Origin: Xenophilus aerolatus
Lineage (GTDB): Bacteria > Pseudomonadota > Gammaproteobacteria > Burkholderiales > Burkholderiaceae_C
DNA length: 64,000 nucleotides
Assembly (NCBI GenBank): GCA_030418545.1
Contig: QAIB01000001.1
Coordinates: 1,116,001 to 1,180,000, forward strand
Direction: 5' to 3'
Part shown: piece after piece, positions 39,823-57,450 of the stretch
How positions within the stretch are numbered: the first letter of the stretch is position 1
Layout: each line of letters starts with the position of its first letter
The notes under the pieces: model-generated
Seen by the model: the letters and a program-made list of their open reading frames with translations, nothing else
What the model was told of the DNA's origin: nothing
The model's database searches: none
Translations under genes and position numbers: made by a program

Positions 39823-39832
39823 ATGCGGGCCT

Positions 39833-39941
39833 CCGTACGCGAAGGGCGCGAAGGTTTCGCGAAGGACGCGAAAAGGGACAACAAATGAAATAGATGTTTT
39901 TCGCGACCTTCGCGTGACTCTGGTTTTCCTTTCGCGTACGG
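39833..39941. repeat. GCGAAGG hairpin element, copy A (phnU / FAD-oxidoreductase gap)
   Basis: A left arm of about 42 bases consists of tandem units, CCGTACGCGAAGG then GCGCGAAGG then TTTCGCGAAGG then ACGCGAAAAGG. After a loop of about 22 bases comes a right arm with TCGCGACCTTCGCG and the end TTCGCGTACGG, which pairs perfectly with the outer 11 bases of the left arm. The left arm differs from copy B (49050) at one position in 42. Not a CRISPR: units are too short and uneven and there are no spacers. Confidence 0.9.
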
Positions 39942-39983
39942 ATGTCCGCTCCCGTATTCAATTCGCGCTCCCACTTGGCACCC

Positions 39984-47069: not shown

Positions 47070-47071
47070 AG

Positions 47072-47099
47072 TGGACATATAAGAAGGATAAGATGTCCA
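47072..47099. promoter_or_regulatory. Operator/promoter of the toxin-antitoxin module
   Basis: TGGACAT and ATGTCCA form a perfect 7-bp inverted repeat whose centres are 21 bases (two helical turns) apart. It lies in an AT-rich 58-bp gap before the antitoxin gene, with TATAAG and TAAGAT as possible -10 boxes between the arms. This is the layout expected for autoregulation by a Phd/YefM antitoxin dimer pair. Confidence 0.6.
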
Positions 47100-47127
47100 T
47101 ATTCAGTGTCCTTTTCGGGGGTCGACC

Positions 47128-47475
47128 ATGACCTGGAACATCGCCAGCGCCAAGCAGCAGTTCTCCGAAGTCGTGCGCCTCACCGCGCAGGAGCCGCAGG
47201 CCATCTACAACCGCGACAAGCCGGTGGCGGTGATGGTCTCGCCGCAGGAGTTCGAGGAGTTCCGTCGCTGGAAGGCCGAGCGGGAGAAGCCGGACCTGAT
47301 GGAACTGTTCGCCAAGATGCGCGCAGCCCTCATCGAGGAGGGTTTCGAGGACGGCATCGAATTGCCGCCACGCACGGACCGCTTCAACCCGATGGTGGAC
47401 GACCCCCACTATTGGGACGAGCCGGCATCGGATCGGGCCCCCGACCCCGACGACGCACCACCCAGGCTCCCCTGA
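47128..47475 (+). CDS. Phd/YefM-family antitoxin
   Basis: 115 residues. The N-terminal Phd/YefM DNA-binding fold is clear ([46 protein letters not shown]). The C-terminal half is acidic and Pro-rich ([19 protein letters not shown]), an unstructured toxin-binding tail. It should neutralise the PIN toxin encoded 3 bases downstream and repress the module through the upstream inverted repeat. The pair sits between yejB and yejE. Confidence 0.9.
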
Positions 47476-47477
47476 CC

Positions 47478-47882
47478 GTGTACCTGCTCGACACCAACAT
47501 CGTGAGCGAACTGATGCGTCCGGCGCCCGATGGCGCGGTTCTGCAATGGTTCTCTCGTATCGCGTCCCTGGCGCAGCCGCTTTCCGTGTCGGCCATCACC
47601 GTCGACGAAGTCGTGTTCGGGCTGGCGCGCAAGCCGCGCAAGGCTGCTGCCATCTTCTTCGACGATTTCGTGGCCAGTGGCCGCGTGATCGATGTCAATG
47701 AGACCATCGCCCGCCGTGGCGGCGACTTGCGCGGCCTGCTGGGCAACCGCGGGCGCGTGCGCAGCCAGGCCGACATGCTCATCGCCGCCACCGCCCAGGT
47801 CCACGCCCTCACGCTCGTCACGCGCAACGTGCGCGACTTCGACGGGTGCGGCGTCGCCGTGCTCAACCCTTTCGACGCATGA
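47478..47882 (+). CDS. PIN-domain ribonuclease toxin (VapC/FitB type)
   Basis: 134 residues from a GTG 3 bases after the antitoxin stop. PIN acidic residues are present: Asp5 (LLDTNIVSE), Glu44 (ITVDEV), Asp99 ([10 protein letters not shown]) and Asp120 in TRNVRDFDG. The FitB-like [12 protein letters not shown] start is typical. Such toxins cleave RNA, often tRNA, when the antitoxin is lost. Translational coupling with the antitoxin is likely. Confidence 0.92.
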
Positions 47883-47943
47883 GCACCCGCCCAGCCGCTC
47901 CGAAGGGGGCTCGCACCGCAGCGCGCGGCGCAGAGGTTCTCCA

Positions 47944-49044
47944 ATGAGTCCTGCCCCGCCGCTCGAAAACGGGGTTCGCCTCGCAGGCGACGCCGAAGAA
48001 GCGCCGCACGTGAGCCCGGCGCGTGTGTCGCCCGGCCGCCGGGCCTGGCGGCGCTTCCGCCGCAATCGGCTGGGCTTCTACAGCCTGGTCCTTTTCGTCG
48101 CCTTGGTGGTGCTGAGCCTGTTCGCCGAGCTGCTGTCGACCGACAAGCCGCTGGTGGTGCGCTACCAGGGCCAGACCTACTTCCCGGTGGTCAAGGACTA
48201 TTCCGAGAAAGCCTTCGGTGGCGACTTCGAGACGCCGGCCGACTACCTCGACCCCTTCATCCGCCAGCGCATCACCGACGGCGGCAACTGGGCCGTCTAT
48301 GCGCCCAATCCGTACGGCCCGCGCACCCTCAATTACTTCGCGAGCCAGCCCAACCCGGCGGCGCCCTCGCGCGAGAACCTCTTCGGCACCGACGACCGGG
48401 GCCGCGACCTGCTGGCTCAGCTCATCTACGGCTTCCGGGTGAGCGTGCTCTTCGCGCTGGCGCTCACCGCCATCGGCGTGGTGCTGGGTGTGATCACCGG
48501 CGCGATCCAGGGCTACTTCGGCGGCAAGACCGACCTGGCCTTCCAGCGCTTCATCGAGATCTGGGGATCGATGCCCGAGCTGTACCTGCTCATCATCTTC
48601 AGCGCCATCTTCGCGCCCAGCGTGGCGCTGCTGCTCATCCTGCTGTCGCTGTTCGGCTGGATGGGCCTGTCGGACTATGTGCGCGCCGAGTTCCTGCGCA
48701 ACCGGCAGATGGACTACGTGCGCGCCGCCCGCGCGCTCGGCGTGGGCAACCTGCAGATCATGTGGCGCCACATCCTGCCCAACAGCATGGTGCCGGTCGT
48801 CACCTTCCTGCCGTTCCGCATGAGCGCGGCCATCCTCGCGCTGACCTCGCTCGACTTCCTGGGCCTGGGCGTGCCGCCCGGCACGCCGTCGCTGGGCGAA
48901 CTGCTCAACCAGGGCAAGGCCAACATCGACGCCTGGTGGATCTCCATGTCGACCTTCGGCGTGCTGGTCGTCACGCTGATGCTGCTGACCTTCATGGGCG
49001 ACGCGCTGCGCGACGCCATGGACCCGAGGAAGGCGGACCGATGA
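47944..49044 (+). CDS. yejE: YejE-type ABC transporter permease
   Basis: 366 residues. After a polar N-terminus comes [36 protein letters not shown], then a large periplasmic loop (about residues 65-155) with [22 protein letters not shown], five helices and the coupling segment [22 protein letters not shown]. This matches YejE, partner of YejB. It is 61 bases downstream of the toxin gene, so it may be driven by read-through or by the module's promoter. The start ATG is preceded by AGAGG. Confidence 0.94.
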
Positions 49045-49049
49045 AAAAC

Positions 49050-49170
49050 GGACAGCCGTACGCGAAGGGCGCGAAGGTTTCGCGAAAGACGCGAAAAACA
49101 TCCAGCAGGAATTTGGCTATTCCTTTCGCGACCTTCGCGCACATTTCGCGACCTTCGCGTACGGCTGCCC
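49050..49170. repeat. GCGAAGG hairpin element, copy B (yejE / yejF gap)
   Basis: The outer arms CAGCCGTACGCGAAGG (49053-49068) and CCTTCGCGTACGGCTG (49152-49167) pair perfectly over 16 bp, and the inner arms continue with GCGCGAAGG and TTTCGCG-type units on one side and CCTTTCGCGACCTTCGCGC on the other. The loop is about 24 bases. The element occupies nearly the whole 133-bp gap, from 5 bases after the yejE stop to 7 bases before the yejF start. Confidence 0.92.
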
Positions 49171-49177
49171 GCACCCC

Positions 49178-57308: not shown

Positions 57309-57320
57309 AACGGACACGAA

Positions 57321-57435
57321 CAGCCGTACGCGAAGGACGCGAAGATCACGCGAAGTACGCGAAAGAGAAAGTCATCTTCTTTCGAGTTCTTCGCGGTCTT
57401 CGCGAGACCTTCGCGTATTTCGCGTTCGGTTCCCG
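57321..57435. repeat. GCGAAGG hairpin element, copy C (infB / rbfA gap)
   Basis: The left arm CAGCCGTACGCGAAGG is followed by ACGCGAAGATC, ACGCGAAGT and ACGCGAAAG units. The loop is about 23 bases, and the right arm holds TTCGCGGTCTTCGCG, AGACCTTCGCG and TTTCGCGTTCGG. It is the most diverged of the three copies, but the arms still pair over about 42 bases with mismatches. It starts 12 bases after the infB stop and fills most of the 142-bp gap. Confidence 0.88.
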
Positions 57436-57450
57436 CTCCCGCTTTGCACC

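Follow-up and report, generated by a model that had tools for sequence, protein, structure and literature searches.

Dispersed intergenic hairpins of Xenophilus aerolatus are associated with a GxxExxY gene, predicted to encode a PD-(D/E)XK nuclease-type protein, that lies inside a hairpin of the same family

The 64,000-nucleotide stretch of the Xenophilus aerolatus genome analysed here (the window) contains three gaps between genes that are largely filled by long hairpins resembling each other, which raises the question of what these hairpins are and what makes them alike. The original prediction had described three related hairpins lying between co-directional genes; all three are present as described, and the gene annotation of the window places co-directional genes on both sides of each (Table 1). 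The limits first given were slightly short, because the consensus of the family, read by eye, extends outward to CGGACnnCCG...CGGnnGTCCG. The left arms of elements A and B differ, again by eye, at one base over their units, as had been claimed. The predicted RNA folding energies of A, B and C were -59.9, -66.9 and -61.3 kcal/mol (z = -6.94, -7.34 and -7.05), and for each of them none of 200 shuffled sequences was as stable. The window contains 30 occurrences of the string CGCGAAGG, where 7.66 would be expected, and 22 inverted repeats were found there, including B (I1), C (I2) and A, which was detected through its outer ends only (I9). A search of the window with Rfam at gathering thresholds returned a tRNA only, no curated RNA family matching the hairpins, and inspection by eye revealed no T-run after the right arm in the three copies.

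Table 1. Positions of the hairpins and of other features discussed in the text (window coordinates unless a contig is named)
Feature	Location	Strand	Remarks
Element A	~39825-39949	.	gene-less hairpin between a BPD_transp_1 permease gene and a DAO oxidoreductase gene; units of the GCGAAGG dialect, with some degeneration of the right arm
Element B	49049-49171	.	gene-less hairpin at a former ATGA stop/start overlap; between an OppC-type permease gene and an ABC ATPase gene
Element C	57311-57443	.	gene-less hairpin; infB/rbfA gap
GxxExxY gene	G000:C2:159.75-160.10 kb, outside the window		trpE-trpG gap (gene names presumed)
Species-specific segment (~0.9 kb)	47070-48026		between two permease genes
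PIN-domain gene	47106-47882		within the species-specific segment
Y1_Tnp (PF01797) gene (L068)	G000, C32:153.6 kb		before a presumably gltB-like gene

Whether the hairpins form a defined element family, as had been proposed, was examined by seeking further copies in the whole genome (G000), and many were found, so that the proposed refutation by absence of copies fails. The 16-base unit pattern ACGCGAAGGNCGCGAA gave 216 matches with at most one mismatch, against 4 for the reversed control, and the arm-end pattern CCGNACGCRRAGGNCGC found 119 arms, its reversed version none; these counts point to a family whose members number in the tens, reaching about 100 at most. In a second genome of the same species (G060) the exact-pattern counts nearly match those of G000 (51/51 and 51/53), and those of the listed sites on collinear contigs that were inspected by eye occur in both. 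A consensus drawn by eye from 68 unit clusters of G000, which come from the first exact places listed for the unit pattern and thus from part of the whole match list, reads CGGACATCCGTACGCGAAGGGCGCGAAGGTTTCGCGAAGGACGCGAAAG, a free loop and then the reverse complement. The short hairpins are about 125-130 bp long, and each of their two arms is built from tandem units of 8-11 bases with GCGAAGG as the core.

Removal of seven of the 68 clusters, namely the partial copies L001, L017 and L044, the long copies L004 (twice) and L026, and element C (counted as a window row only), left 61 hand-picked copies, whose unit counts are biased because the places were chosen by a match to the GCGAAG pattern. 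Their median length is 128 and their median RNA energy -73.9 kcal/mol, against -54.5 kcal/mol for 183 control pieces, and 22 of the 61 are more stable than every control. All except two, which overlap the end of a predicted gene, lie outside predicted genes (59/61). According to a simple codon-usage gene finder, 51 of the 61 are in co-directional, 4 in convergent and 4 in divergent gaps; this preference is weak, because co-directional gaps form the majority in the window in any case (43 of 57). Among the 51 co-directional copies, 47 start within 20 nt after the upstream stop codon.

A long copy of the hairpin on contig C2 of G000 (L004/L177) has the same arms and a loop of several hundred bases that carries a gene. 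It lies between genes that we take to be trpE and trpG, the trpG side being recognised by the motif DNYDSFT. The loop gene is GxxExxY, with matches to TIGR04256 (E 3e-40, 137.1 bits against a cut-off of 35) and PF13366 (PDDEXK_3; E 8e-39, 133 bits against 22). The N-terminus of the protein is probably translated arm, because the reading frame is open across the left arm. The residues E23, D63, E73, K75, Q87 and Y91 are invariant in 12 GxxExxY members, and Q87 and Y91 are nearly invariant in an alignment of 61 relatives (80 less five with internal stops and 14 others). We take these residues to be the PD-(D/E)XK motif set with QxxxY, that is, the motifs E, D, ExK and QxxxY. The motif pattern is matched by 72 of the 75 stop-free relatives, and 5 of the 80 have an internal stop. 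The structure predicted for one relative (L199) has a pLDDT of 96.5, and its best, although weak (E at least 3e-3), folds in the PDB are Cas4 SSO0001 (TM 0.61, best chain), LHK-Exo and lambda exonuclease. GxxExxY is predicted from these data to be a PD-(D/E)XK nuclease-type protein with a minimal domain of 120 residues. It resembles the Cas4, lambda exonuclease and RecB-type nucleases in predicted fold and motif set, but differs from them in its 120-residue domain, in being encoded inside hairpin repeats and in matching no PDB chain by sequence at E up to 1. With one query at E 1e-5, it was matched by none of 50,697 phage records and by 8 of 72,556 plasmid records, and a peptide-pattern scan of 2.9 million viral contigs gave one match (L359, arm score 47).

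The placement of the gene inside arms is not confined to X. aerolatus. Of 25 GxxExxY genes from the bacterial family and the genus, a set that omits L197 of the same-species genome G060, 21 have a local inverted-repeat score exceeding all 200 control placements. The arm units vary by genome and include GCGAAGG, GCAGAGG, GCAAAGG, CACAGAGG, CCACAGATG, ACGCGAAAA and others. GxxExxY precedes trpG in 20 of the 25 (17 by motif and 3 more by reading). All 21 armed genes keep D63, E73, K75, Q87 and Y91, and two of them carry a stop codon. All four armless genes (in G025, G159, G251 and G320, genomes with 0 tandem-unit matches) have the substitutions D63G and Y91A and keep E73 and K75. Armless loci of this D63G/Y91A form were seen before trpG at L187, L190, L191 and L192. 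The armless form is possibly an inactive version kept as an open frame, and the four genes, with identical substitutions, may represent one or two events. Loss of the arms together with loss of motif residues is a prediction of the two-part-element model described below. The same arrangement was scored at 80 loci taken from named genomes in many phyla, with archaea such as Methanothrix and Methanosarcinales among them; L242 was dropped for its short flank. Of the 79 loci that could be tested, 56 have an arm score higher than the 99th percentile of 395 controls, 41 of these surpassing every control, and the other 23 do not exceed that percentile; many of these arms read like C-R-C-R-R-A-G units.

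Gene and repeats also occur together. Tandem-unit matches were found in 20 of 299 genomes of the bacterial family. GxxExxY was likewise present in 20 of 299 genomes drawn in the same way, the listed handles of the two surveys agreeing, with one copy in 18 and two copies in 2 of them. Twelve genomes have both, and all 10 genomes with at least two tandem-unit matches carry the gene (hypergeometric 1.4e-13, uncorrected for phylogeny). Eight genomes have the gene and no tandem-unit match; four of these are the armless cases, and the other four (G026, G137, G260 and G314) have arms of other units. Eight genomes have a single match and no gene. Within the genus, GxxExxY is present once each in 6 of 15 genomes (G000, G060, G002, G008, G012 and G013), and these are the same six that have hairpin elements; the nine other congeners have no match to the GCGAAGG pattern and no nuclease gene, and a wider pattern used on two of the nine (G003 and G011) gave 0 matches. 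The association of the hairpin repeats with the GxxExxY gene is strong.

The behaviour of single copies was followed by comparing the orthologous gaps of A, B, C and seven further sites in the genus. At the B gap the element is found only in this species (G000 and G060) and is absent from all 13 other congeners. The empty site in G002 reads GGACCGATGACCCC, and the occupied site in G000 reads GGACCGATGA, the element and then ATGACCCC; the junctions, with ATGA on both sides, suggest a possible 4-base ATGA duplication. B is the sole site with a readable empty counterpart, the other empty gaps being too diverged. The A gap is occupied in G002, G008 and G013, with GCAGAGG units in G008 and G013, and the C gap in G002, G008, G012 and G013, with GCAGAGG or GCAAAGG units in the last three.

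Some further differences at these gaps were noticed. The infB-rbfA gap holds unrelated DNA in G003 and G004, that of G004 with an inverted repeat of its own (by eye). In G002, the gap orthologous to L061:6376-6501 lacks the core and shows joined ends, CGGATACAGGATGTCCG, that look like the scar of a deleted element. The window also contains a species-specific segment with a PIN-domain gene (Table 1), missing from the aligned congeners inspected, which may be an inserted toxin-antitoxin module of what we take to be the VapBC type.

At the sites that are shared, the spelling of the units changes between species. Five species with long shared stretches were divided into T genomes (G000 and G002) and non-T genomes (G008, G012 and G013), and their dialects were counted with a detector accepting both GCGAAG and GCAGAG spellings. 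The GCGAAG/GCAGAG counts were 64/0 in G000, 33/0 in G002, 5/36 in G008, 7/32 in G012 and 9/25 in G013, the last including 3 GCGAAG from a probable false positive (G013_C33:208976). Twelve sites are occupied in a T genome and in at least one non-T genome, and at 11 of them the T genomes contain GCGAAG and lack GCAGAG, the spelling that the others possess; at the exceptional site (C22:473629) G012 is also T-type and G008 is empty. The dialects are mixed to some extent. A-type copies remain in G000 (3 of the 13 arms listed; L360-L362), and G012 and G013 have minority copies of T-type; G012 is mostly G-type, G013 mostly A-type, and G008 a mixture of A and G.

Sequence identity was compared at 13 loci, after G013_C33:208976 and G012_L108, which has no partner, were dropped. 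Orthologous copies are 0.84 identical between G000 and G002, 0.81 between G008 and G012, 0.79 between G008 and G013 and 0.74 between G012 and G013. Across the divide, T and non-T orthologues are 0.63-0.66 identical, only slightly above the 0.60-0.62 of non-orthologues; the values of G000 against the non-T genomes are 0.65-0.66, its mean with G012 including the site that is T-type in both. Paralogues within G000 are 0.70 identical, above its cross-dialect orthologues, which is a mark of concerted evolution; paralogues in G008, G012 and G013 (0.63-0.67) are no better than cross-dialect orthologues. The private segment AAACCAAAGT at L061:1441 persists across the dialects in five species, slightly altered in G002, and at one site the stem was kept while, in one or more of five sequences, 8 of its 37 pairs underwent changes on both sides. 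By eye, what is apparently the same copy in G008 (L368) and G013 (L370:996) has one GCGAAGG arm and one GCAGAGG arm; it is possible that this is a half-converted element.

The division of dialects was compared with the nuclease allele and with the relation of the species. Among the five species, the DNA flanking the nuclease gene is 0.915-0.979 identical. The nuclease itself falls into the alleles {G000, G002} (0.931), {G008, G012} (0.939) and {G013}, with 0.73-0.78 identity between alleles, a DNA difference of 22-27%. Judged by shared DNA, the species nearest to G002 is G013 (5.2%, all other pairs being at 7.2-8.2%; 27 of 38 tiles), a nusA-infB tree also groups these two with a support of 96, and G008 and G012, at 8.2% divergence, are no closer than other pairs. 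The spelling (T or non-T) and the allele thus agree where both conflict with the species relation, above all for G002 and G013. The conflict rests on the pairs G002-G013 and G008-G012, because G000 itself is nearest to G002 in shared DNA (7.2%, 19 of 38 tiles). The finer division into G and A types matches the allele only loosely, since G008 mixes both, and the link to the allele concerns the dominant dialect and not every copy, given the minority copies in G000, G012 and G013.

We propose, with a probability of roughly 0.6, that the hairpins and the gene are the two parts of one element, a nuclease gene in a hairpin and many gene-less hairpins that are rewritten by nuclease-driven gene conversion. 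The full form would be a hairpin with GxxExxY in its loop, usually one per genome, and the gene-less copies would be the tens of short hairpins, in G000 mostly located just behind stop codons. The nuclease would recognise the units of its own arms, probably when these are extruded as a hairpin or cruciform, and cut the arms, whereupon repair would copy another member of the family. The usual outcome would be that an existing hairpin is overwritten in place by gene conversion, and the rare one that a new copy is inserted, as at B. We infer the cutting of the arms, the copying by repair and a maintenance that is selfish rather than host-serving. A further-reaching reading, which we hold tentatively and at somewhat less than even odds, is that GxxExxY acts as a genome-wide hairpin editor, so that a new allele would rewrite tens of hairpins, and enzyme and dialect would turn over together; its odds are lowered by the one shared site in 12 that is unswitched and by the fact that G000 is nearest to G002.

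The strongest competitor, in our opinion unlikely, is that T, G and A subfamilies of hairpins spread by ordinary insertion and that gaps were hit again after loss, none being rewritten in place. It would account for most inspected copies being internally of one dialect, for genomes also holding minority dialects, and for cross-dialect orthologues at several sites being no more alike than random pairs; at several sites, fresh insertion and conversion are indistinguishable. However, 12 of the 13 compared loci have a copy on either side of the T/non-T divide, and in 11 cases the spelling differs; it seems improbable that the same gaps were hit repeatedly and independently. Moreover, private segments such as the one at L061:1441 survive the change of dialect, exact or nearly exact in five species, and the half-and-half copies in G008 and G013 also speak against it.

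It is less probable still that the hairpins are RNA or DNA elements useful to the host, serving as stable 3' ends or operon separators, with the nuclease as a host processing enzyme and selection keeping the spelling uniform. The starts just behind stop codons, the strong folding of the 61 copies and the stem pairs kept through two-sided changes would all fit such a role. The occurrence is patchy, however, with no tandem-unit match in 279 of the 299 family genomes and nine congeners lacking both GCGAAGG matches and the gene, the preference for co-directional gaps is weak against the background, and for point selection to keep the spelling uniform, most units in many copies would have had to change twice within some 5-8% divergence. 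That the hairpins are REPIN-type elements moved by a RAYT (Y1 HUH) transposase, with GxxExxY as a passenger, is very improbable: the layout of many hairpins with one enzyme gene is REPIN-like and G000 has a single Y1_Tnp gene (Table 1), but Y1_Tnp is present in 14 of the 15 genus genomes regardless of hairpins, its 3.3-kb locus in G000 has no tandem units and three scattered hexamers only, and it is GxxExxY that tracks the hairpins in the genus and sits inside their arms.

The preferred reading, a nuclease gene and gene-less hairpins rewritten by conversion, can be set beside known systems. Homing endonucleases are encoded by a gene inside an element and spread through cutting and copying by repair; the present gene is similar in being carried in the element that its presumed cutting would spread, but there is no intron or intein host, many copies are gene-less, and hairpin arms take the place of one cut site. 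MITEs are short non-coding copies with inverted ends. The hairpins share with them the short copies, the inverted ends and, at B, a private insertion with a possible ATGA duplication, but no transposase partner was identified (Y1_Tnp being the sole family sought), the full-length form has a nuclease gene in it, and sister species have most of the compared sites in common. The interpretation given in the original prediction is supported in part. A defined element family and a miniature mobile element are borne out by the many copies, the patchy occurrence among congeners and the near-clean empty site of B. The partner that tracks the hairpins is a GxxExxY PD-(D/E)XK gene inside a hairpin and not a transposase, and most compared sites occur in several sister species with their sequence rewritten. 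The mRNA role that was also suggested may exist, but the co-directional placement of the copies speaks for it only weakly.

REPIN/RAYT systems, according to the available text of two papers, also comprise many inverted-repeat hairpins with a dedicated, co-varying enzyme gene (PMC3116915, PMC8266576). The present system is like them in its many short intergenic inverted-repeat hairpins and its associated, co-varying enzyme gene, and unlike them in that the enzyme has a predicted PD-(D/E)XK fold, theirs being HUH Y1, that the gene lies inside the hairpin loop, that the arms consist of tandem 8-11-base units and that the sequence is rewritten at shared sites. REP palindromes are described, in the portion of the source available, as GTAG- or CGTC-tagged (PMC3733652), and the hairpin ends here read CGGACnnCCG (by eye). 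Membership in REPIN/RAYT was rejected, the Y1 (PF01797) transposase being neither linked to the repeats nor tracking them. Among the literature matches listed (open-access text, bioRxiv excluded) there was no description of these hairpin repeats, and the long unit strings had no match in open-access literature; the repeat of PMC5944118, as far as its available text goes, is a CRISPR repeat unrelated to the hairpins. No described function for GxxExxY was found in the open-access text available, and in the accessible part of PMC8934634 the name appears only as a neighbour label.

The hairpins and the nuclease may constitute a previously undescribed form of selfish or self-rewriting DNA. The link to the hairpins gives the GxxExxY family, which occurs in many phyla, a directly testable substrate hypothesis. 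The system would be a second, unrelated solution to the problem solved by REPIN/RAYT. It would also illustrate how dispersed bacterial repeats evolve in concert, with a driver that may be identifiable. If the reading of GxxExxY as a genome-wide hairpin editor is true, the system would represent a widespread class of bacterial and archaeal hairpin-homing elements not described before.
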